A stretch of 29,923 nucleotides of DNA. Source: a virus. A program made the translations under genes and the position numbers. How positions within the stretch are numbered: the first letter of the stretch is position 1; each line of letters starts with the position of its first letter. The notes beneath the pieces were generated by a model, which saw nothing but the letters and a program-made list of their open reading frames with translations, did no database searches and was not told the DNA's origin. Shown here one piece after another: positions 3,959 through 18,606 of this stretch. Location of the stretch: positions 1 through 29,923 of IMG/VR virus record IMGVR_UViG_3300037336_000028. One strand, 5' to 3'.

Positions 3959-4093
3959 ATGATGGACAAGAAGACGAAACCGATGAGCTACAAAAAAGGC
4001 GGCATGGTGTTCAAGCCCTGTCCCGGATGCCCAAACCCAACCAAGTGCAAGGCGATGGGTAAGTGCATGAAGAAGGCAGGCAAGAAAAAGTGA
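3959..4093 (+). CDS. Small basic four-cysteine protein
   Basis: This 44-residue frame starts at ATG 3959 (a second ATG follows directly), with GAGGA at 3946-3950. It contains CPGCPNPTKCKAMGKC with Cys at 21, 24, 30 and 36, flanked by lysine-rich ends. The pattern suggests a small zinc-binding knuckle, and the basic charge would suit nucleic acid or virion binding. Similar tiny Cys-rich proteins with a KKGG element occur in other marine phage genomes, by my recollection. It ends with a 4-base GTGA overlap with the next gene, which supports it as a real translated gene. Function is unknown. Confidence 0.7.
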   Translation: MMDKKTKPMSYKKGGMVFKPCPGCPNPTKCKAMGKCMKKAGKKK

Positions 4094-6504
4094 CCGCCCT
4101 AAAGATCATCAACTTTCTCGGCGTTGTGCCGAAGAACTCTGCGGAGTTATTGCCGGATACCGCCGCGCAAGTAGCGGAGAACTGCAAGCTCTACTCTGGT
4201 GATCTTATACCCTACCCACTGCCGGTCATTACTGCAAATACAGGGCGTACGGGGGAAACCCGTACGCTCTACGCGTTGCGCGATCCTAATACAGACGAAC
4301 CCGTGTGGCTATCATGGCCCGGCGACGTGGACATCGTCACGCCCGCAGCGGACGAGATCGGCGAGCAGCGGTTCTACTACGCAGGTGATGGTGTACCGAA
4401 GGTTAGTACCTACGAGCTTACCACTACCGGCGCAGCCCCATACCCCACAGGTTTCTACGAGCTAGGGCTGCCGCTCCCAACAGCGACACCTACCGCGACC
4501 GCGACCCCATTTACACCAGCAACATCGGCGAGCTTCGCGCGCGACGACAGTAACAACGTGACACTGGTCACAGCGGCACCGCACAATCTCAAGACCGGTG
4601 CATTTGCCACGATCTCTGGCTTTGCGTTCCGCACGGGTACCTACAGCCAAGCAGGCAGTGCTGTCACAGTGACCATCACCGGGCACGGGCTGACGACAGG
4701 CGCGCAGGTGTTCGTGGAGTTTACCAGTGGCGGCGCACTGCCCGGCGCGTACAACATCACTGTTGTCGACGCGGACACCTTCACCACTGCAGCACCGGAT
4801 TCCGCTACCCGGTCAGGCGATGCGCGGTGGGACATCCGGGACCTGAACATTACGACCGATACCACGGTCGTCGACGCTACGACGCTCACGTACCGAGCAG
4901 CTGGTCCCGCTGTCACGACGACCGCGAACACAGACGGCAAGGTCGATCTCGGTGGCGCGGTGCTTGCACGCAACTACGTGTACACATGGTTCACTCCATG
5001 GCAGGAGGAGTCTGTAGGCTCCATCCCGTCTGAACCGCTGTTCATAAAAGAAGGCCAGATCACCACTGTTGCAGGGCTACCGACCGCACCTCCGGCGGGC
5101 ACGTTCGTGCGAGGTATTCGGCTATACCGGTCCCTCGCGGTGGCAAACGGCACCAGTGAGTTCTTCCGACTGACCACCCTGTGGTTCCCCAACCCGCTGG
5201 TACGCGCGTCGCGCGCATCGAATGTGTCCCGCGTTCGACTGGAGTCTCCACACAACTTGTTGAAACGTGACCGGGTCAAGATCAGCGGCGCGGCCCCAGC
5301 GAGCTTCAACATAACTGACGGCGTCGTAACGGCGCTCATCGACCAGTACACGTTCGAGTACGCGCAGACAGCAGCTGACGTCGCAGACGACGTAGCGACC
5401 GGCACGCTCTACTACGATAGCGCGGAGCGCGCGACGGACCCGGCTCGGTACTGGGGCGACGGTGGCGTGTACACTTTTGTGGACGACTTTAGCTTCCGCA
5501 GCCTGTTAAACATCTTGACAACGGACAACTACAACGCACCGCCCGACGACCTGCAGGGTCTGGCTGTCCTCAAGACCAATATCCTCGTGGGGTTTGTGGG
5601 TAACGACCTATACTTCTCCGAGCCCGATAAGTTTCACGCGTGGCCAGTGGAGTATAAGCGCTCACTGGAGCACAACATCGTCAAGGTCATACCAATCGCT
5701 GGGGACTTGATCGTACTTACGGATAGCTATCCATACTATGTTGCTGGTAACGACCCGCGGACACTGTCGATCCAGAAGGCAGACGCACGGTACCCATGTG
5801 TCAGCCGGCGCAGTGTGGCGTTGACTCCCACTGGCGTTGTATTCTCCTCCCATGACGGGTTGGTTTCCATGGGCCCCTTGGCCGGGGCGCAGATTCTGTC
5901 TGCCAAAGTACACAGCAGCGACACATGGAACGCAGCGCTCGACCCCGAGACCGTAGTGGGTGCCAACTACAAAGAGACTTACTTCGCGGCGCACAGCGCG
6001 GGCTCGTTTGTCTACGAAGTGCTGGAGCGCGGCGCGTCTTTTGTGAACAGTGACTACACGTTCACTGCCACGTGGTACGATCCCCTTACAAACATCTTGT
6101 ACTACACCAGCGGTGAGAACGGCGACGTCTACCGTTGGGACGATCCAACGCAGCCCACAGCTACATTGCAGTGGAAGTCCAAGACGTTCATCACCCCGCT
6201 GTACACCAACGTAGGTGCGGCGCGTGTCGTCGCTGACTACACCGGCGCAGTCTTCTCGTCTGTGTGGGGTACCGCAGACATCAACTGGGAAGTAGCCGAG
6301 GAGAACTGGGACCAAGACGACCCACTGACGTTCAGCCTCTACGTTGACAAGCAGCTGGAGTTCACAACGACATTGGAGAGCGGCGATATATTTCGCCTGC
6401 CCGCAGGCTATAAGTCTGACACGTTCGAGTTCGGCGTGTCTGGCACGATCCGCGTGCGGTCGATCCACATAGGCGAAACACCCTCAACGCTGGTGCGTGT
6501 CTGA
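4090..6504 (+). CDS. Large phage structural protein with repeated beta modules
   Basis: I place the start at GTG 4090 (overlap GTGA), giving 804 residues beginning TALKIINFLGVVPKNSAELL; the ATG at 4063 would sit inside the preceding small gene. The N-terminal phrase with AENCKLYSGDLIPYP recurs in virion proteins of podovirus-like aquatic phages. At least three repeats share the pattern V.L..PHNLKTGAFATISG, VTITGHGLTTGAQVFVEF and VRLESPHNLLKRDRVKISG. They resemble the small beta domain called E1 FCCH (PF16190) seen in phage tail proteins. The remainder is rich in aromatic and Asp residues, like beta-propeller or tail-tube structures. A tail or head-tail structural role is inferred; a precise role cannot be named. 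Confidence 0.7.
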   Translation: MTALKIINFLGVVPKNSAELLPDTAAQVAENCKLYSGDLIPYPLPVITANTGRTGETRTLYALRDPNTDEPVWLSWPGDVDIVTPAADEIGEQRFYYAGDGVPKVSTYELTTTGAAPYPTGFYELGLPLPTATPTATATPFTPATSASFARDDSNNVTLVTAAPHNLKTGAFATISGFAFRTGTYSQAGSAVTVTITGHGLTTGAQVFVEFTSGGALPGAYNITVVDADTFTTAAPDSATRSGDARWDIRDLNITTDTTVVDATTLTYRAAGPAVTTTANTDGKVDLGGAVLARNYVYTWFTPWQEESVGSIPSEPLFIKEGQITTVAGLPTAPPAGTFVRGIRLYRSLAVANGTSEFFRLTTLWFPNPLVRASRASNVSRVRLESPHNLLKRDRVKISGAAPASFNITDGVVTALIDQYTFEYAQTAADVADDVATGTLYYDSAERATDPARYWGDGGVYTFVDDFSFRSLLNILTTDNYNAPPDDLQGLAVLKTNILVGFVGNDLYFSEPDKFHAWPVEYKRSLEHNIVKVIPIAGDLIVLTDSYPYYVAGNDPRTLSIQKADARYPCVSRRSVALTPTGVVFSSHDGLVSMGPLAGAQILSAKVHSSDTWNAALDPETVVGANYKETYFAAHSAGSFVYEVLERGASFVNSDYTFTATWYDPLTNILYYTSGENGDVYRWDDPTQPTATLQWKSKTFITPLYTNVGAARVVADYTGAVFSSVWGTADINWEVAEENWDQDDPLTFSLYVDKQLEFTTTLESGDIFRLPAGYKSDTFEFGVSGTIRVRSIHIGETPSTLVRV

Positions 6505-8715: not shown

Positions 8716-11043
8716 GTGGTAGTTAAGACAAAAGAAGGGTACCTGATACCCACGTACGGCCCGACTGGTATCTCGCCGTCGGCCGGTGCTGAAGCAGGTA
8801 TGGCCGCTGGCCGCGCAGTGCAGACGCAGCGGGAGCAGACGCTTAATTCGCGTCAGGCTCGTGACTCTGTTGACCAGCAGATGAAGATGCGCACCGAGGA
8901 GCAGCGCCGGATCGAAGAAGACCGCGCAATAGCCGCAGCTGAACGGGCTCGGGTCGAAGCCGAGCGAAAGAAGTTAGCAGCTAAACGGGCTCAGCTATTA
9001 CGCGCTATGGAAGCGGCAGCAGTACCGACCGACTCTGGCGTCGTGGCTGCGCCGGGCGCGCAACGCGCGGGCCTGTCGTTTGGGCCTAATACACCTGCCA
9101 TGGAGCCCGTGACCATGGGCGTGCAGCCCATATCTTTCGGTCCGAGTACGCCAGCGCCCACATACGTACCGCCCGGCGGAGCGCGGGCGACTGTCGCTGC
9201 ACGTCAGCAGGACACCCCTTTGACCACGCGCCTCGCCCCGGTATGGGCGCAGTTAGAGCAGCAGGGCGGCCTACCACAAGGTTACTTCCGCCGCCTTGCC
9301 GAGATAGAGAGCAGCCTAAACCCCGAAGCGCGCAACCCGAACAGCACCGCCTCGGGATTGTTTCAGCTTCTCCGTGACACTGCACAGGAGTACAACGTAC
9401 AGAACCCAAACGACCCGATGGACGCTACGCAAGGGGTTGCGCGGTACACCGCCGTCTCTCTGCCTGCGCTACAGCAAGCACTGGGGCGGCAGCCCACGGG
9501 CGGCGAGCTGTATCTGGCCCACCAGCAGGGGGCTACAGGCGCAGTAAACCTACTGCGCAACCCCGACCAGTTAGCATCCGCAGTTGTTGGGGCTGACGCG
9601 GTCCGCCTCAATGGTGGTGACCCCGAGACTATGACCGCAGGCGCTTTTGCTGATCTCTGGATCGGCGAGTTCGAGGGCACGTCCAACTCGCGGAGTTCCA
9701 ACGCTGCTATGGCGGCCGCTGGGATAACATTCTCGTCAGCGCCCCCCGCCGGACTTACTGAGTCAGCGGCGCCCTCGATTACCGAGGTAGACCCCGAAGC
9801 CACGGCGTTCCAACAAGACATACAAGGCTTGCTTCGGCAAGGCGACATTGCTGGCGCGATCAACCGCATAGAGACGGGTTTGGCGATAGGCACGTACGGC
9901 CCCATGGGTAGCCCCGTCGGCGGCATGGTGGGGTACTTTAAGGACACTCCAGACGAAGCGGCCCGCAGAACCCAAGTACAGCAGGCGTTGCAGTGGTTCC
10001 AAGATAGCAAGAACGCGTCCTATATGCGCGACAACCCTGCGCTAATAGCTCAAGCCGCGGCCGACCCACTTGCGTTTGTCGCTGCCCAGCCGCGTGGGGC
10101 ACCCGATGCGGCCGCAGCAGAAACACCTACCGCCCCTATACAAGTGCGCATACCCGGCGGCGCTACGATTGCCGTATCCGAACCCGATGCTCCCGCCGCT
10201 GGGCTTACTGTTCCTCCTGCTGCTGCTCCCGATGCTGCTCCCGCCGCTGGGCTTACTGTTCCTCCTGCTGCTGCGGGCGTTCCAACCACCCGTGGTACAG
10301 TCGCGGGCGAAATCTTAGGCTTGCCCCGTGGGGCGCCGGCACCCCGGATTAACCAAAAAGTTATCGACGCTGGCCCTGCGCGTATGACCCAAGAGATGGA
10401 GGGGCTTGCGGCGCAAGACACCCAGCTTGCTCTGTTGCAGCAGTATTACGTCGATATGGAGGCTATACCAGAGGCAGTGAGCGTACAACTCCAGCGTCTT
10501 CAGCTGCGCAGCGCACATCAGGCACTGAAAGGCGCGCAGGCCGTAGCACGTATGGAAATGGGCGATTACTCTATGGCCGCTGATGCATTGTCCACTGCAA
10601 CGGGTACGCCAGTGCAAATCCAACCACGTGTCGACGGTACGTTCGACCTGCTGGCAAACGGTCAAGTGTATGCAGACGGGCTTACAGCTGCTGAACTGAA
10701 AGCATACGTACAGCAAACCACGGACAGCGCGTACCGGACCCAGCAGGCAGCGGTTGCCGAAGCGATGCTTAAGGCTGATATTGAACAGAGCGGCAAGAAC
10801 GCGGACTCAGTACGAAAGATAGCGGAAAAAGCTGCCGAGCTGTTCCAAACAGGCCGGAACGCCGAAGCGCTAGAAAAACTGAAGCAAGCAGGACTCTCAG
10901 TAGAGTTGACAGACTCTGGGATTTTTATATTTAGTCAGGACGGTACCGAGGCATACATTATAGACCCCGCGGGGAAGGTTTCGCCCGTGGGTGTCGACCA
11001 ACCAGTCGGGGGCCCGACTGCTAAGCCCATATTACTACGATAA
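8716..11043 (+). CDS. Internal virion protein with lytic transglycosylase (SLT) domain
   Basis: This 775-residue protein starts at GTG 8716 with AAGGAG at 8702-8707. Residues about 40-95 are a charged helix (RTEEQRRIEEDRAIAAAERA). Residues about 170-290 form a lysozyme-like transglycosylase domain: RLAEIESSLNPEARNPNS has Glu198 as the likely catalytic acid, followed by ASGLFQLLRDTAQEY and ELYLAHQQGATGAVNLL. Such domains cut glycan strands so the phage can pass DNA through the cell wall during entry. A Pro/Ala linker with two 16-residue repeats lies near residues 490-525, and the C-terminal third is helical. The classic G-L-x-Q motif is present as GLFQL. No signal peptide is seen, as expected for a virion-packaged enzyme. 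The next gene, a giant internal protein, fits the same injection role. Confidence 0.8.
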   Translation: MVVKTKEGYLIPTYGPTGISPSAGAEAGMAAGRAVQTQREQTLNSRQARDSVDQQMKMRTEEQRRIEEDRAIAAAERARVEAERKKLAAKRAQLLRAMEAAAVPTDSGVVAAPGAQRAGLSFGPNTPAMEPVTMGVQPISFGPSTPAPTYVPPGGARATVAARQQDTPLTTRLAPVWAQLEQQGGLPQGYFRRLAEIESSLNPEARNPNSTASGLFQLLRDTAQEYNVQNPNDPMDATQGVARYTAVSLPALQQALGRQPTGGELYLAHQQGATGAVNLLRNPDQLASAVVGADAVRLNGGDPETMTAGAFADLWIGEFEGTSNSRSSNAAMAAAGITFSSAPPAGLTESAAPSITEVDPEATAFQQDIQGLLRQGDIAGAINRIETGLAIGTYGPMGSPVGGMVGYFKDTPDEAARRTQVQQALQWFQDSKNASYMRDNPALIAQAAADPLAFVAAQPRGAPDAAAAETPTAPIQVRIPGGATIAVSEPDAPAAGLTVPPAAAPDAAPAAGLTVPPAAAGVPTTRGTVAGEILGLPRGAPAPRINQKVIDAGPARMTQEMEGLAAQDTQLALLQQYYVDMEAIPEAVSVQLQRLQLRSAHQALKGAQAVARMEMGDYSMAADALSTATGTPVQIQPRVDGTFDLLANGQVYADGLTAAELKAYVQQTTDSAYRTQQAAVAEAMLKADIEQSGKNADSVRKIAEKAAELFQTGRNAEALEKLKQAGLSVELTDSGIFIFSQDGTEAYIIDPAGKVSPVGVDQPVGGPTAKPILLR
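10189..10274 (+). repeat. Two-copy 48-bp direct repeat in the transglycosylase gene
   Basis: A 48-base unit at 10189-10236 is repeated from 10237; the first 38 bases are identical in both copies. It encodes APAAGLTVPPAAAPDA twice, a Pro/Ala linker. The near identity at synonymous sites suggests a recent duplication. Confidence 0.85.
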
Positions 11044-11052
11044 GGTGAACCC

Positions 11053-14000
11053 ATGGTAGACCGCGCCGGATTGATGTTACCAGAAACGCCTGCAGCGGCT
11101 ATGGAACTTGGCCCCCAAAACGCCTTTAGCGTTGCACTACGGGACCCGTCCCGAGCCAGTGGGCTAGGCGGGCTGGGCACGACCATGGCGGATGTGCAAG
11201 TTGCTTTTGAGCAGGTCGTAAACCAGCCTGCGCCTGACTACACTGCGATGCGCGCCCCGCCTGCGCAGGCGGGGCCCTCAATCTACTTTGACCAAGCCCG
11301 CAACCTGTTCTCTGTAAACGGGTATGCCTTCGACGCTGAGGACTATGGCGCAGCTGTACAGTCGCGGCAGTTTCTGAACCAGCCTGCCGGTGGCCCACCG
11401 GCGGAAGGGGCGTGGACTCGATTGAGCCCCAGTATGTACGAGCAGTACATGACTCAGATCGAAGACCCCACGCTGGGCACACGCTTCGGGCGTAGCTTCG
11501 ACATCGGGGTGCAGAACCTGAAGACCCTCGGCGGCGCAGGCTTGCAGTTCCTTGGGGCAGAGGAGACAGGTGCGGGCGTCGTCAATCGTGCCAGCGAAGA
11601 ACTCCAGCGCCTGTCGCCCTTCCAAGTATCGGCCGCAGAGGTTGCCTCTGGCGAGCTAGGCGCGATTGAGTACGCTGTGTCTGTGCTTGGTCAGCAGGGC
11701 CCGAACATCCTCGAGAGTATTGGTACCGCGCTCGTCGGCGCAGCCGCTGGTGGTGTTGCGTCTGGTAATCCTATCGGCGCAGCCGTCGGTAGTTTCGGTG
11801 CGCTGCTGTCAAAAAGCGCTATCAAAGGCGCAGCCAGAGAAGCCGCAGAAGCCTACGCGCGGGGCGCAGCCTCGACCGCGCAGAAGAAACTGCTGGCCCG
11901 CATCGGCGGTGCAGCCGCTGCAACGGCGGTCAACAACTACGCCATGGGCGTCTCGGACGTATACAGTGAGACCCGCCAGCAAGGCGCGGGGCCAGAGGAC
12001 ATGGACGCTCGCGCGATATCCGCTGCCATTGGTGTCCCCTACGCTGTGCTGTCCACGATCCCGGAAGCTATCGCTGCGGGCCGGCTGTTCGGCTTTTCAA
12101 ATGCTGCCGGTGGTTTGCTCCGCCGCGCAGGCACTGGCGCCGGAATCGGCGCAGGGTTGGAAGGTGTAACCGAGGCCGGACAAGAAGCGCTTGTCATGGC
12201 TGGCGGCCAGCAGTTCGGTGGGGATTACACCGACGAATACCTGTCGCGCCTTATCGAAGCCGGTGTAGCCGGTGCAGTCGTCGGCGGTGGTATCGGCGGC
12301 GTGGTCAACCTGCGCGCAGGTAAGCCCACTGATATACTACAGGGTCGCCAAGAACCACCAGCGGACGCTGCCCCTGCCCCGCTTGGACTACCAGCTCCTG
12401 CCCCGCTTGGACTACCAGCTCCTGCCCCGGGCTTACTTCCAGCCCCGCCTGCTGCACTCCCTGCCCCTGACCGTACTGCAGCGGCTGCGCCCGAGGTTAT
12501 CGTGCCGGCCGCCCCTGCGGCGTCGTCCGTTGCGTCTGCTGCGCCTGTTGCGCCTGTTGCGCCTGTTGCGCCTGTTGCGCCTGTTGCGCCTGCGGCCCCC
12601 ACTGCCGCGACGCTCGGGCTTGAGGGCCCTGTGGCTGAAGGGTTTGATATAGCCGCCACTTTGCAAGGCCCACCGACACCGCCGGTGACTACGGCTGCAC
12701 CCCCAGTGACTGCACCAAACCAGTTACAGCAGCAGTTAATGGCACTGCAGCAAAGACAGCAGCAGACAGCGCAGACGCCAGCCCCTGTGGTAGCACCGCC
12801 GGTCGAAGAACCCACCGAGATCGCAGTGGAGCCCACACCGACTGGCGAGATCACGCCTCGTGAATACGACGCAGCCTACGGTGGCTGGGAGGAGGTACGC
12901 GCTGACCAGTCCAACCCGGACGCACTTCCGTCGCTGCCGCGCCTCAACAAGAAGGCCCAGCGCGAATGGGTTATGGCAGTGCGCGCGGGTACCGCAGACG
13001 CTGCCCTGTTCGGGCGGCTTGCGAAGCGTAAAGTCAGCAAGGCAGAGCCACTGGTAGCCACTGGTGTAACCGCCACGCGTGAAGCCGACATCAATGCTAT
13101 GCAGCAGCAGGTAGCTACCGCCCGTGCGACTGAGGCTGCACAGCAAGACCTGCAGGGTAAGGCCGCTGCCCTTCGTGCGCTGGGCCAGCGCATGGAACGC
13201 GCCCGCCCGCCGCTACCTGCCGACACCTATGGTACAGAAGCTGGCGCACCTTTCCGGAACAAGGCGCAGGCCATCGCACCGGCCAACCGCAAGCGCGTGG
13301 CGAAGCAGATCAACCAAGAGACTGGCAAAGCTGTCACCGCGAAAGACCTCGAACCTGTGGAAGTCGCGGGCGGCTGGGCGCTGCGCGTGAAGACCCCACC
13401 CACACCACCGGCTCCTAAGCCCACCCTCAAGAGAGGAAAACCTGATGCCGTTCGTGAGCAAGGCGCAAAGGCGAGCACTCTACGCAAAGGACCCAAAGCT
13501 GGCGGAGAAGTTCGAAGCAGTGACACCGAAGGGCAAACCGCTACCGGAGAGGGTACCCAAGAAACCGCCCAAGAGGATACCACCCAAGAACAATCGCCTG
13601 TTCGGGAAGCTGGAGTAGCACCGCCCCCGGCGAAGCCTGCGAAGCCGAAGAAGGTCAAGCTACCAGCGGGAGAAACAGACGCGGAGCTTGACAGGTCGAT
13701 AGCTATGGGAGCCGTGGAGCTCGCCGAGGATGTAATCCTCAACGACGCGCGCAAGAAGCGTACCCTGCTCACGCAGGCGGAGCTCGATGCTGGCGTTGAG
13801 CTGACCGTGCTCAGCACAAACTCTGACCCGGCTGTGGCTAAGGCAGCACTGGATGTGCTTGAGCTCAACCTGTCCGCCACCCAGTACAAAGAACTCGCTG
13901 CGTATGTGGAGCGCGCGAACAACCACGGGAGCCTCGGTGGTGACCGGGCCGATGTGGACTTCGCGGGCAAAGAAATACAGGCCATGGTAACCATGTTCAA

Positions 14001-17000
14001 CTCCGGTTCTGTGCCCGACAACAGCGTGTCGGCGTTCGAAGCGCGGTTTAGGGCACTGGCCACGCGTGTGCGTAACAGCGACCCTAAGGCAGACGTCCTC
14101 GGGTACGCTACGGTAAGCAATTCGCCAAACAAAAAGATGGGGCAGATCGCCCACACCACGCCCAACACAAACTCCGGCGGTGCGTTTTCGCTCGCGTCGC
14201 TGGCCGATGCTGTCCTTGGTAATGGTAAGCGCGCAGTCCCGCTGGCCATCGGCAAGCAGCGTATGATCGCCCGGAATATACTCAACAAGTTCAAGGTAAA
14301 GCCCGAGCTGTCTGTGTTCGCAAGTCAGGCCGACATGAAGCAGCGCAACCCTGCGCTCTACAAGCGCGCTGCAGCCGCGCGCAGCCAAGGCGACTTCGAC
14401 AGCGCACCGGCGGTGGGCTACTTCTTCGATAACCAAGTCATCATCTTCAGTGACCGCGTGGCTACGCGCCAGCAGCTGGAGTTTGTCGTCGCCCACGAAG
14501 TGTTGGGCCACTTCGGCATGCGGTCCGTGCTCGGTGCGTCCGAGTTCAACACGCTGATGGATTCCGTTTACACTGACAGCTCGCCCTATACCAAGGTCGC
14601 CATTGACGACATGGTTGCAGCGCGCGGCATGCCACGGGCTGAGGCCGTGGAAGAATACCTGTCGGACTTTGCAGCACAGGTGGAGACAAGCGTCCTGCGC
14701 CGGTGGTGGGCCAAGGCCAAAGACGCGCTGAACAAGATCGGCTTCAAGTTCGACGACGATGTCGCGCGCTACCTTATGAACCAGAGCCGCAGGTACCTGC
14801 GCACTGGGGAGAAAGGCTCTGTGTTCAACACCGACCGCGTCGCGGGCACCATGCACCAGCTCGAAGCAGGCACAGACCCCACTGGGGTCGGCCGCTTCAG
14901 CACCGCAGCAGAGCAGGCACCCATTCGCGAGCTGGGCCATATGGTAGATGACCCGGGCCGGGTCATGCCATCGTCTATCCAAGACGCACAGGACAAGTTC
15001 ACGCGCGCAGCAGAGGTGTTGGGCTTCGCACCCAAGGACCTCGCCAACAAGTGGGACTCGCTCAAGCGTAACATCGCTACACCGACTATCTTCCGCGCCA
15101 TGCGCAACGAAGGGTTCCAGAAGGTGTTCGATATCCTGCGAGACAGGCACAACTTTGCGCGCGCAATGGTCACACAGATGCAGACGCGCCGCGATATTGC
15201 CCTCAACCCACGGGTCGAGAAGCCGGCCAAGCTCGGCATGGGCGGTAACGGGATCAGCGTGGATGGCCGGGCCAAGGCAGGGTACGTACTCAAAGCCAAC
15301 CGTATGTTCCACTCGTATAGAGCCAAGCGGCTAACTGCTGGTAACACGCCCAAGCTGTTCCTGCGCGAACCCGGGACCGGTAAGCTCCGCCCGGTAGAGG
15401 CCACGTTCGACAAGCTCCTGAAAGAGAACAGACTGCCCCGCGAGCAGTGGGCCGAGGGCGTGCGCGTACCTTACGACACACCGATCCAGATGACTGACGC
15501 GAAGCGCGCTGAGCTTGAGGCTGAGCGCGATGCTGCTATCGCAGCGGCCACGACGGACAAGGCGAAGAACCGCATCACACGGGACTACAAGGCACGGATT
15601 GAGAACAACACATACACAGGTGTGGCCTACCTCGACGTGAAGCAGGAGTTTACGGACCTTGAGTGGGGTGCGTTCAACCAAGAGCTGGACGCGATGGCGC
15701 ACACCGCGCGCGACGTGCTGGAGAGTATCCTCACCAAGTACGACCAAGAGATATCATACTCGTACCGCCGGTTGGGGAAGCAGCTGTCCGCTGCCATGAC
15801 AGACGGTGACCGCGCCCTGATGGACCGTGCTGTCCGCCGGTACGTAGAGATACAAGACGCAGACTTAGCCACCTCCGAGGATGGGCAGATCGACCCGTCG
15901 ACCCGGAACACAGCCGCGGCCGAGAAGTTCTTGATCCAGTTTAACACTGCCCTACTGGGCACCGGCCGTGACCGTATCTACGGTCTGTTCGCCCCGAACG
16001 CGGACAACAACGACATCGTAGCGTTACCCGAGAGCGAGCGGAAAGAACTTACCGACATGATCGACGGGCTCCGTACCCGATACAACCCGCCAGCGAAAGA
16101 CGAAGGTGCAACCGCAACGGAAGCACGGCGCGTGGTCCAGCGTGAAGTCCAGCTCATTGCACAGCAGCTCACTGTGACCCAAGACGCTGAGAAGGCTGCT
16201 GTCCGTACGATACAGACAGCGTATGTACCCATTGTGCGTGAGGGCGAGTACCAGACGAGCGTGGTGTTTACCGGGGCGGACGGCAACCAGTACACACTCG
16301 GCGACAGCTACCGGGAGCAGGCCCCGTACATGCAGTTCGCAAAGCAGTCAGACGCCGACCGCGCAGCCGCAGAGATCACAGAGCTGTTCGGCGACACCGA
16401 GCATACCGTAGAGGTGTGGGACCCAGAGGCTGACAACGGTCGGGGCAAGCTCGTGATGAAGAAGGGTAAGCTGACGGCGGTCAGTGGGACCGTCCTCGAC
16501 GCACCCACTACGGACCCAGAGATCAGCCACGACGCCGCGCTGCGGTTCATCCGGCGCTTCGGTATCCCCCTGACGCCGCAGAAGCTGGAACAGATCATCA
16601 CTGCGTCGACCACCAGTGGCAACCGCGCGATCCTGCGCCAGCTGAAGGCGGGCTTCACACCCGGTGCACCCAACGACTTGACCAGTGCTATCTCATCCCA
16701 CATCGAATCGCGTGCCTCTACCGTCGCACGGAACAAGACCGGGGTGGAACTGGAGAACGCGCTCGACATCAGGGGCGATGCCAAGGACATGTGGTTCGGG
16801 AGCAAGAAGACATACGACGCGCTCAAGGCTGAGTACGAGCGGCTCAAAGCTGCGCCTAACCCGAACGACGACGCGATCAGCGTGGCCCGCCAGAAGTTCG
16901 AGCAGTACCACCGGTGGTACATCACTGAGAACGCGCCCGCGAACGCGAACAAGTTCTACAACGAAGCCCGTACGGCAGTGGCGTTCCTCGACCAGCAGAA

Positions 17001-18606
17001 GGGCGTGCTGGAGACAGACCTCGCGAACAACAAGCACATCGCGACCGTGCAGATGATGACCTCTGTGAGCTACCTCGGCTTCATGGCGGCGTCAGGTGCG
17101 CTCAACATAGCCAGTGTGTTCACCAACGTACCGGCTGCGCTGGGCACAGTGAACCATAAGACAGGTTTCGGTGGCGGCTTCGGGCTCATGCGGGCGACCA
17201 CAGAACTTGCACGCATGACGAAGGTGGCTGCTGGGTGGGGCGGGCAGAAAGACACTGCCGAGTATTGGAAGGGGCTTACCGCCGCAGAGCTCAAGGACAT
17301 GGGTATCGAGTCCGAGACGCGGGACTTCATAGCCCTCGGCATTGAGAGCGGTATCTTCCAAGCGGCGCAGACCAACTCGCTCATTGGTTCGGCCCGTGGG
17401 CGCGTCACATCTGGTGGTGTGCAGAAGTTCCTGACGACGTACATGGCCCCGTTCAACTGGACAGAGCAGGTGGGCCGTAGGACCGCGGGCTTGGCGGGCT
17501 TTGAACTTATGTTCCAGCGGCAGCTGGCTGCCGGCAAGTCACGGGAAGAAGCCGCTGAGGCAGCGGCAAAGTTCTCTGTAGAGATCGTCTCCACTACGCT
17601 GGGGGACTACACCTCTGTAAACCGACCCGCGTTGTTCCGGGGCGGGGTGCTGCAGTTCACGTTCATGTTCAAGATGTTCACGGTGAATACCGCGGCACTC
17701 GTGGCCAACCTGCCACCGGCAGGGCAGGTCGCACTGTTGGGGTCGCTGCTACTACTCAGCGGCTTGCGCGGTGTACCCTACGCTGAAGACATCGAGGACC
17801 TCGTCAACACCCTCGCGCAGAAGTTCGGCATACCTATGCCCAGCATCCGCGACTCGATCCGCCGCAGTGGCGACGAGCTGCTCCCCGGCTTCGGGGAAGT
17901 ACTCGTGAGCGGCGCGCTCAACCGCATCGTACCATTCGACATCGGTGTCCGCTTCTCCGCTGGGGATATCCTACCGGGCACAGGCATTGGTCTGGCTGGG
18001 GCGGACGTATCCCGTGAGCTCATAGAGATCGGCGGGCCGATGGCGTCTTGGATACAACAGATGGTGGGTACTGCGGGCAACGTGGCCAACATCCTGCCCG
18101 GGGGGAAAGCCTTCTCCCTTGAGTCGACACTGCGGGAGTCGCCGGTGTCGTTCCTGCGCGCAGCCACAGACGCTTACGCCTTCGAGAAGCACGGAGCCAT
18201 CGTGGACAAGCGCGGGTATGTGGTGTCCGAAGACTACAACTCAGCCGTAGGTATCGGGCGGATACTCGGCCTGTACCCGGGCCCAGCAGCGCGGGCGTAT
18301 GAGTCTATCCGTGAGGCCAAGCTCATCACCGAGTACCAGAAGTCTATGTCTGTGTACTACCGCGACCGCATCGTAGCCGCCACAGTGGCTGGCGATAACG
18401 CCAAGGTGCAGGCGCTATATGCAGAGGCCCGAGAGTGGAATGAGTCCGCCGAGGGGACAGGGCTGGAGGTTGTCAACCTTAGGTCCCGCGTCCGCAGCGC
18501 CTTGAGATCGCAGCGTCTAGGTGCCAGTGAGCGGTTCCTGAAGACCACGCCGCTGGCCACAAGAAGTGCAGCGCAGCGGATCGTGGACGCTTACATCGCA
18601 GAGTGA
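11053..18606 (+). CDS. Giant polyvalent-type internal protein with zincin-like motif
   Basis: This single 2517-residue frame starts at ATG 11053 after TAAGGTGA. Visible parts in order: a Gly/Ala-rich, possibly membrane-active segment (about 225-255 and 345-420); a Pro/Ala linker with tandem repeats (about 430-600); a charged linker (about 790-880); a metallopeptidase-like region with VVAHEVLGHFGMR (His1148, Glu1149, His1153) and EAVEEYLSDFAA about 50 residues later; long helical regions; hydrophobic segments near 2003-2025 and 2226-2245; and a C-terminal module (FRGGVLQFTFMFKMFTVN) like LPD38-type ends of phage polyvalent proteins. Such giant proteins are thought to enter the cell with phage DNA and counter host defences or aid injection. 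The HExxxH spacing differs from classic HExxH, so activity is uncertain. Placement after the transglycosylase fits an ejected internal protein. Domain limits are approximate. Confidence 0.75.
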   Translation: MVDRAGLMLPETPAAAMELGPQNAFSVALRDPSRASGLGGLGTTMADVQVAFEQVVNQPAPDYTAMRAPPAQAGPSIYFDQARNLFSVNGYAFDAEDYGAAVQSRQFLNQPAGGPPAEGAWTRLSPSMYEQYMTQIEDPTLGTRFGRSFDIGVQNLKTLGGAGLQFLGAEETGAGVVNRASEELQRLSPFQVSAAEVASGELGAIEYAVSVLGQQGPNILESIGTALVGAAAGGVASGNPIGAAVGSFGALLSKSAIKGAAREAAEAYARGAASTAQKKLLARIGGAAAATAVNNYAMGVSDVYSETRQQGAGPEDMDARAISAAIGVPYAVLSTIPEAIAAGRLFGFSNAAGGLLRRAGTGAGIGAGLEGVTEAGQEALVMAGGQQFGGDYTDEYLSRLIEAGVAGAVVGGGIGGVVNLRAGKPTDILQGRQEPPADAAPAPLGLPAPAPLGLPAPAPGLLPAPPAALPAPDRTAAAAPEVIVPAAPAASSVASAAPVAPVAPVAPVAPVAPAAPTAATLGLEGPVAEGFDIAATLQGPPTPPVTTAAPPVTAPNQLQQQLMALQQRQQQTAQTPAPVVAPPVEEPTEIAVEPTPTGEITPREYDAAYGGWEEVRADQSNPDALPSLPRLNKKAQREWVMAVRAGTADAALFGRLAKRKVSKAEPLVATGVTATREADINAMQQQVATARATEAAQQDLQGKAAALRALGQRMERARPPLPADTYGTEAGAPFRNKAQAIAPANRKRVAKQINQETGKAVTAKDLEPVEVAGGWALRVKTPPTPPAPKPTLKRGKPDAVREQGAKASTLRKGPKAGGEVRSSDTEGQTATGEGTQETAQEDTTQEQSPVREAGVAPPPAKPAKPKKVKLPAGETDAELDRSIAMGAVELAEDVILNDARKKRTLLTQAELDAGVELTVLSTNSDPAVAKAALDVLELNLSATQYKELAAYVERANNHGSLGGDRADVDFAGKEIQAMVTMFNSGSVPDNSVSAFEARFRALATRVRNSDPKADVLGYATVSNSPNKKMGQIAHTTPNTNSGGAFSLASLADAVLGNGKRAVPLAIGKQRMIARNILNKFKVKPELSVFASQADMKQRNPALYKRAAAARSQGDFDSAPAVGYFFDNQVIIFSDRVATRQQLEFVVAHEVLGHFGMRSVLGASEFNTLMDSVYTDSSPYTKVAIDDMVAARGMPRAEAVEEYLSDFAAQVETSVLRRWWAKAKDALNKIGFKFDDDVARYLMNQSRRYLRTGEKGSVFNTDRVAGTMHQLEAGTDPTGVGRFSTAAEQAPIRELGHMVDDPGRVMPSSIQDAQDKFTRAAEVLGFAPKDLANKWDSLKRNIATPTIFRAMRNEGFQKVFDILRDRHNFARAMVTQMQTRRDIALNPRVEKPAKLGMGGNGISVDGRAKAGYVLKANRMFHSYRAKRLTAGNTPKLFLREPGTGKLRPVEATFDKLLKENRLPREQWAEGVRVPYDTPIQMTDAKRAELEAERDAAIAAATTDKAKNRITRDYKARIENNTYTGVAYLDVKQEFTDLEWGAFNQELDAMAHTARDVLESILTKYDQEISYSYRRLGKQLSAAMTDGDRALMDRAVRRYVEIQDADLATSEDGQIDPSTRNTAAAEKFLIQFNTALLGTGRDRIYGLFAPNADNNDIVALPESERKELTDMIDGLRTRYNPPAKDEGATATEARRVVQREVQLIAQQLTVTQDAEKAAVRTIQTAYVPIVREGEYQTSVVFTGADGNQYTLGDSYREQAPYMQFAKQSDADRAAAEITELFGDTEHTVEVWDPEADNGRGKLVMKKGKLTAVSGTVLDAPTTDPEISHDAALRFIRRFGIPLTPQKLEQIITASTTSGNRAILRQLKAGFTPGAPNDLTSAISSHIESRASTVARNKTGVELENALDIRGDAKDMWFGSKKTYDALKAEYERLKAAPNPNDDAISVARQKFEQYHRWYITENAPANANKFYNEARTAVAFLDQQKGVLETDLANNKHIATVQMMTSVSYLGFMAASGALNIASVFTNVPAALGTVNHKTGFGGGFGLMRATTELARMTKVAAGWGGQKDTAEYWKGLTAAELKDMGIESETRDFIALGIESGIFQAAQTNSLIGSARGRVTSGGVQKFLTTYMAPFNWTEQVGRRTAGLAGFELMFQRQLAAGKSREEAAEAAAKFSVEIVSTTLGDYTSVNRPALFRGGVLQFTFMFKMFTVNTAALVANLPPAGQVALLGSLLLLSGLRGVPYAEDIEDLVNTLAQKFGIPMPSIRDSIRRSGDELLPGFGEVLVSGALNRIVPFDIGVRFSAGDILPGTGIGLAGADVSRELIEIGGPMASWIQQMVGTAGNVANILPGGKAFSLESTLRESPVSFLRAATDAYAFEKHGAIVDKRGYVVSEDYNSAVGIGRILGLYPGPAARAYESIREAKLITEYQKSMSVYYRDRIVAATVAGDNAKVQALYAEAREWNESAEGTGLEVVNLRSRVRSALRSQRLGASERFLKTTPLATRSAAQRIVDAYIAE
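12373..12428 (+). repeat. 24-bp tandem repeat in the giant gene
   Basis: Identical 24-base units occupy 12373-12396 and 12397-12420, with a third partial copy to 12428. They encode the Pro-rich phrase PAPLGLPAPAPLGLPAPAP in the linker of the giant protein. Exact identity suggests a recent slippage duplication. Confidence 0.9.
12541..12594 (+). repeat. 9-bp tandem repeat (gcgcctgtt) in the giant gene
   Basis: Five perfect copies of gcgcctgtt (12541-12585) are followed by one variant copy gcgcctgcg. They encode APVAPVAPVAPVAPVAPA, a Pro-Ala-Val spacer. The unit is a multiple of three, so copy-number change would keep the frame and alter only linker length. Confidence 0.9.
13445..13618 (+). CDS. 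Nested small phage protein inside the giant gene (alternative frame)
   Basis: A 57-residue frame starts at ATG 13445 and ends at TAG 13616-13618, in the +1 frame relative to the giant gene. A GAGAGG ribosome binding site at 13431-13436 sits 8 bases upstream. The protein begins MPFVSKAQRRALYAKDP and continues KLAEKFEAVTPKGKPLPERV, then a Lys/Pro-rich tail ending RLFGKLE. The start strongly recalls a widespread family of small phage proteins (MPFxSKAQxRxxxAxxP...TPxxKxLPExV), usually free-standing. In the giant frame the same DNA encodes a low-complexity polar linker (about residues 798-855), which looks like the arbitrary partner. This supports overprinting: a real gene lies inside, and the long frame reads through it. 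The function of the family is unknown to me. Expression is not shown. Confidence 0.7.
   Translation: MPFVSKAQRRALYAKDPKLAEKFEAVTPKGKPLPERVPKKPPKRIPPKNNRLFGKLE

Follow-up and report, generated by a model that had tools for sequence, protein, structure and literature searches.

A small phage gene with free-standing relatives nested in the +1 frame of a PLxRFG-domain giant gene

We asked whether a 57-codon open reading frame lying wholly inside a giant phage gene is a gene in its own right and, if so, how it came to lie there. The window, that is, the whole stretch of DNA analysed, is an entire 29.9-kb virus record (IMGVR_UViG_3300037336_000028). Its plus strand carries a tailed-phage late module consisting of a tail fibre, an M15 peptidase, a phrog_511 internal virion protein, a transglycosylase and the giant gene, and its replication genes are on the minus strand. 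The features that concern us are the following.

4063..6504, plus strand: internal virion protein, phrog_511 (E=3e-100)
8716..11043, plus strand: gene upstream of the giant gene, with a transglycosylase SLT domain, part of the late virion module
11053..18606, plus strand: host gene, a PLxRFG-domain giant of 2517 codons, with NF032893 at amino acids 1875-2487
13431..13436, plus strand: Shine-Dalgarno-like GAGAGG, 8 nt 5' of the nested ATG
13444..13617, plus strand: host linker (giant amino acids ~798-855), polar, acidic and of low complexity; the same bases as the nested gene, read in the host frame
13445..13618, plus strand: nested gene of family A (MPFxSKAQRR...LPERV), 57 amino acids, MPFVSKAQRRALYAKDPKLAEKFEAVTPKGKPLPERVPKKPPKRIPPKNNRLFGKLE, ATG to TAG, in the +1 frame of the giant gene

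The C-terminal part of the giant scores 103.9 bits against NF032893, for which the curated cut-off is 100, and the protein is thus a member of the PLxRFG family. This part is common to the virion giants of F116-like Pseudomonas phages, and the record of the H66 relative notes that the protein was verified in the virion by mass spectrometry. By its NF032893 match and its H66-type relatives, the host gene resembles the PLxRFG/DarB-like polyvalent giants (F116/H66, P1 DarB; PMC5512222); it differs in that the cultured PLxRFG-type giants examined (H66, Y7, Y11 and Mel-JY34) contain neither family A nor the second nested family, B, described below. Upstream of the nested gene, the Pro/Ala-rich linker of the giant contains tandem GCGCCTGTT repeats (APVAPV...) at window positions 12545-12600. 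The only hint of a host organism comes from three weak giant relatives in bacterial metagenome-assembled genomes (Gammaproteobacteria, Rhodocyclaceae and Proteobacteria), and families A and B are absent from all three.

The mere openness of the nested frame means little, because the stretch also stayed stop-free in 1648 of 2000 trials (82%) in which the giant gene was shuffled synonymously, and because longer +1 open runs occur elsewhere in the gene, for example 169 codons at 11660. Openness was therefore rejected as evidence. What places the nested gene beyond chance is the homology of its peptide and the +1 nesting found in relatives of the window, with further support from the codon-position signature and the start signal. 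A single search returned relatives of the peptide in 57 viral contigs, at 37-96% identity and E-values down to 8e-31. Family A membership is met through the N-terminal MPFxSxAQRR, the conserved P and A, and the LP(E) element; in alignments of nested and standalone members, S5, Q8, P17, A20, L33 and P34 are invariant or nearly so. Scans of the 57-aa protein against PHROG, Pfam and NCBIfam gave no usable family, and tblastn with the full 57 residues against phages gave no match at E<=0.01; with a 37-aa core, elemoviruses and others were matched at E 0.04-10. PHROG_1375 did not match the 57-aa protein and is weakly near two standalone relatives (L026, E=0.0018; L017, E=0.07).

Many of the matched contigs carry family A as a free gene, mostly of 40-70 codons. 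It stands between terminase and portal genes in one contig (L023), between portal and major capsid protein (MCP) genes in phage 023Pt_psg01, and close to tail genes in L017. A sequence-only reading had placed the 57-codon +1 frame with its GAGAGG site, described the host-frame product as a polar low-complexity linker, held that the small family normally stands alone in phages, and proposed a homologue search and a comparison of conservation in the two frames. The placement held exactly, as did the linker; the search confirmed standalone homologues in many phages, and the comparison, given below, shows that the nested frame is constrained.

How general is this arrangement? Through the conserved C-terminal part of the giant we fetched 80 related giants, 26-89% identical. 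Together with the window, 44 of the 81 contain family A, 12 contain family B, 13 contain neither and the remaining 12 are truncated short of the linker; nesting persists in relatives as distant as 26-30% identity. The loci fetched yielded 82 distinct nested copies altogether (66 of family A, 16 of family B), every one in the +1 frame of its host, and 81 are open over at least 36 codons; the sole broken copy (L008/L100) has a TGA at codon 21. Four contigs of one phage (L010-L013) carry ACG in place of the ATG with the rest of the nested gene conserved, which might reflect either a non-standard start or an early loss. Family A occurs exactly once per contig in 22 contigs of giant relatives that have it, and for several of these the position was compared with that of the nested copy and agreed. 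At least 13 of the 69 hosts in which the region is present lack a nested A or B, and no other copy was found elsewhere in those of their contigs that were searched; the nested gene is therefore dispensable in some phages. One giant (L160) has two nested family A copies, at 5479 and 6001, the first apparently with a CTG start after AGGAG.

When the hosts were clustered with the nested segment masked, they fell into three clusters without detectable mutual similarity, plus three single hosts.

Cluster C1, 56 hosts: window-type PLxRFG giants
Cluster C2, 12 hosts: an acidic protein of ~400 amino acids in the gene order terminase-portal-HOST-MCP-like (scaffold position)
Cluster C3, 11 hosts: elemovirus-type giants, among them those of the cultured Flavobacterium elemoviruses and of ctfjg026, a complete genome

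A profile-profile comparison of C1 with C3 gave a probability of 0.3%, i.e. the two are unrelated, and a local blastp of the elemovirus giant against that of ctfjg026 matched only over the nested gene. The C2 hosts (L188 5835-7082, L184 5538-6716 and ten others) contain family A in the +1 frame near their N-terminus, and the four C2 proteins scanned had no match in PHROG. Most nested copies derive from metagenomic contigs, the cultured or complete cases being Elemovirus and ctfjg026, whose records annotate the host gene alone at the nested site; in the elemovirus record MT497017 the nested ATG is at position 54224. The nested gene is likewise unannotated in MW202828.1 (741-12320; L222 9405-20984), where the 3859-aa phage giant is labelled 'reticulocyte binding/rhoptry protein', a name that is most likely a misnomer.

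We then asked which of the two frames is constrained. In a +1 nest, host position 1 is the nested wobble position and host position 3 is nested position 2. Among 23 sister or related pairs drawn from all clusters, differences at nested positions 1/2/3 numbered 156/115/298 in 934 codons, against 14011/11279/22585 in 46212 codons at positions 1/2/3 of the rest of the hosts, which show the usual excess at host position 3. The odds ratio for host position 1 versus position 3 is 4.2 (p=1.5e-43); the p value is only a guide, because the pairs share some history. In all 23 pairs the amino acid identity of the nested frame exceeds that of the same bases read in the host frame. Purifying selection thus acts on the nested frame. 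The host frame is also preserved: it contains no stop in 3332 codons over nested A copies, whereas the corresponding frame of standalone A genes has 8.4 stops per 100 codons, so that both frames are maintained. This same difference makes the nested gene appear to be the older partner and the acidic disordered linker of the host to have been made from its other frame, which is an inference.

The nested genes also bear start signals of their own. A Shine-Dalgarno-like site precedes 49 of 78 nested starts and only 7.7% of the other out-of-frame start codons of the same hosts (p=8e-34). The positive starts all lie outside C2 and C3 (53 of 60 copies there). Ordinary genes of the C2 and C3 phages equally lack such sites (0/52 and 2/34, respectively), and the nested starts of these two clusters have the A-rich leader found at the other genes of those phages. 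Nested starts therefore carry the ordinary initiation signal of each phage group, which favours internal initiation over frameshifting.

The linker of the giants can house a second small family. Family B, (M/V)PLKSGKSNKVVSANV...KQAVAIALSKAG, matches PHROG_2423 (E=4e-19 to 5e-8), a group of small proteins listed as of unknown function; family A has no match to this group. In related giants, family B occupies the same linker in the same frame (L091 9159, L093 2973, L097 4299, L119 9096, L133 8889 and others), and it also exists as a free gene, directly after the portal gene in phage DSL-LC04 (portal-small-MCP). One exchange is particularly clear: L097, with family B, is sister to L069 and L071, with family A; the hosts are 77-82% identical (81% for L069 versus L097), and the flanks can be aligned on both sides of the replaced linker. 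The tree of the giants needs eight label changes among A, B and none. In L112 the linker is missing entirely, and L135, sister to the A-bearing L132, has a different sequence there. Additional family B matches elsewhere in the genomes were set aside, being DUF6496-like free genes; several giant-bearing phages (L225-L232) have such a gene (SRKQAIAIALSEA) elsewhere in their genome.

As for the function of the nested protein, the AlphaFold prediction for family A puts residues 6-26 in a helical hairpin, after which come the LPERV stretch and a basic tail of weak prediction quality; that for family B has two helices (pLDDT 82 in both cases). A fold search and profile searches of the PDB gave no meaningful structural match, and no match to a family of known function was found. 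From the basic charge, the position in the late module and the company of portal, scaffold-position and virion giant genes, we infer that the family A product is most likely a small basic protein of late morphogenesis or of the virion; translation of the peptide is inferred as well.

The permissiveness of the gene itself was rejected as the cause of the uniform +1 nesting, since the +2 frame of standalone copies is open more often (19/75 for A, 15/73 for B) than the +1 frame (12/75 and 5/73). The host segment over the nested gene has many D/E and A/G/P and few hydrophobic residues, as expected of a disordered linker, and the other possible host frame would encode a strongly basic, acid-poor stretch (33% K/R, 3% D/E). 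The basic product of this alternative frame may explain the exclusive use of +1, a possibility that rests on inference.

We propose the following scenario, which we consider very likely as a whole. A free late small gene, older than its present coding context, would have been captured in the +1 frame by a giant virion gene, within the stretch that encodes a disordered linker, and the host linker would now be the translation of the other frame of the captured gene. The nested gene would be translated by internal initiation from its own start, and its product would have the function of the free-standing relatives that are encoded next to portal and capsid genes. In this scenario, giant virion proteins and the scaffold-position protein would repeatedly take small genes into their linkers and exchange them, with later losses. 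The homology, the frame, the constraint on the nested frame, the start signals, the swaps and the presence in three host families are shown; translation of the peptide, the direction of capture and the function of the protein are inferred, without ribosome-profiling or peptide evidence. Capture is supported by the homologues that stand alone in the structural modules of other phages, together with host relatives that lack the linker or the gene (L112, L135). A tree of the small proteins mixes free and nested copies, and its supported branches force at least three label changes for C1. With only ~45 residues it has too few columns to be well resolved, and the direction and number of captures therefore remain inferences.

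Three other explanations must be considered, and we regard each as very unlikely. According to classical overprinting, the small frame was born de novo inside the giant and is the younger of the two. This mechanism explains most viral overlaps, of which the internal +1 type is the commonest class (PMC8227390), and it predicts no homologues outside the overlap. However, homologues of the nested protein stand alone in many unrelated phages and lie nested in unrelated hosts, and it is the host linker that is the lineage-specific, disordered and variable partner, absent in L112. Alternatively, the giant could be truncated by +1 ribosomal frameshifting, with the nested frame as a C-terminal tail. 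In its favour, the shift would have to be +1, and some programmed frameshifts have, as here, an SD-like site a short way upstream. On the other side, ATG, GTG or TTG starts are kept in nearly all copies, the spacing of the site is typical of initiation, host groups without such sites use their ordinary A-rich leader, and the free homologues begin with the same Met.

The nested frame might also be a non-functional relic, an inserted fragment kept free of stops merely by the need for the host frame. The stop in L008, the ACG start in L010-L013 and the hosts without the gene speak for it. Yet the codon-position pattern shows constraint that tracks the nested frame and not that of the host, nearly all copies are open, and start signals are enriched. 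The sequence-only reading had itself named a broken small frame in an intact giant as refuting its proposal, and this was seen in only 1 of the 82 distinct nested copies. It had left a choice between capture of a small gene and fusion of two genes across it. Capture is supported. Fusion is not, as we found no relative in which a split giant flanks the small gene with its two halves; one relative (L128) has a shorter giant frame but no A or B gene. Moreover, the usual TAATG/ATGA junctions between phage genes place the upstream frame in +2, not +1 (PMC8903798), as in the standalone L014 and L017, and the nested gene is also found in the elemovirus and ~400-aa host genes, which are unrelated. What that reading had missed was the second small family in the same slot and the same nesting in other host genes.

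Embedded +1 genes are themselves already known, best in the Rz/Rz1 spanins (lambda; PMC6139136). There too a small phage gene lies wholly nested in +1 over the flexible linker of the host protein, and the same type of gene is also found in separated architecture. The differences are that the two spanin products are partners in one function and that only one kind of host gene is involved; the spanin survey found no family with members in both embedded and another architecture (PMC6139136). Family A, unlike Rz/Rz1, is a single family that occurs free as well as nested, the latter in three unrelated host families, and a second family shares its slot. Our case shares with overprinted viral genes such as phiX174 E in D (PMC8227390) an internal same-strand +1 overlap in which one partner is rich in disorder, but there the inner frame is usually a younger orphan, whereas here the inner gene has free relatives and it is the host linker that looks new. 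In the open-licence papers searched we found no description of such nesting, and no report either of a family that stands free in certain phages but is nested within several unrelated host genes in others, or of two families exchanging one nested slot.

These genes form a class of conserved phage genes that annotation has passed over. The usual account of overlapping genes is that the inner one was born de novo, and here the inner gene seems to be the older of the two. Because it has free relatives and can be swapped at the same site, the age order and the route of capture can be tested by comparison. The uniform +1 frame, despite the openness of +2 in free copies, raises the concrete question of which frame a captured gene must take. 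A bolder reading, which we think likely, is that the disordered linkers in phage virion proteins serve generally as landing sites for small genes that already exist; these would be taken up in one fixed frame, cleared of host-frame stops and exchanged between unrelated families. If this is true, nested genes could arise by a route in which new coding sequence forms around an old inner gene.
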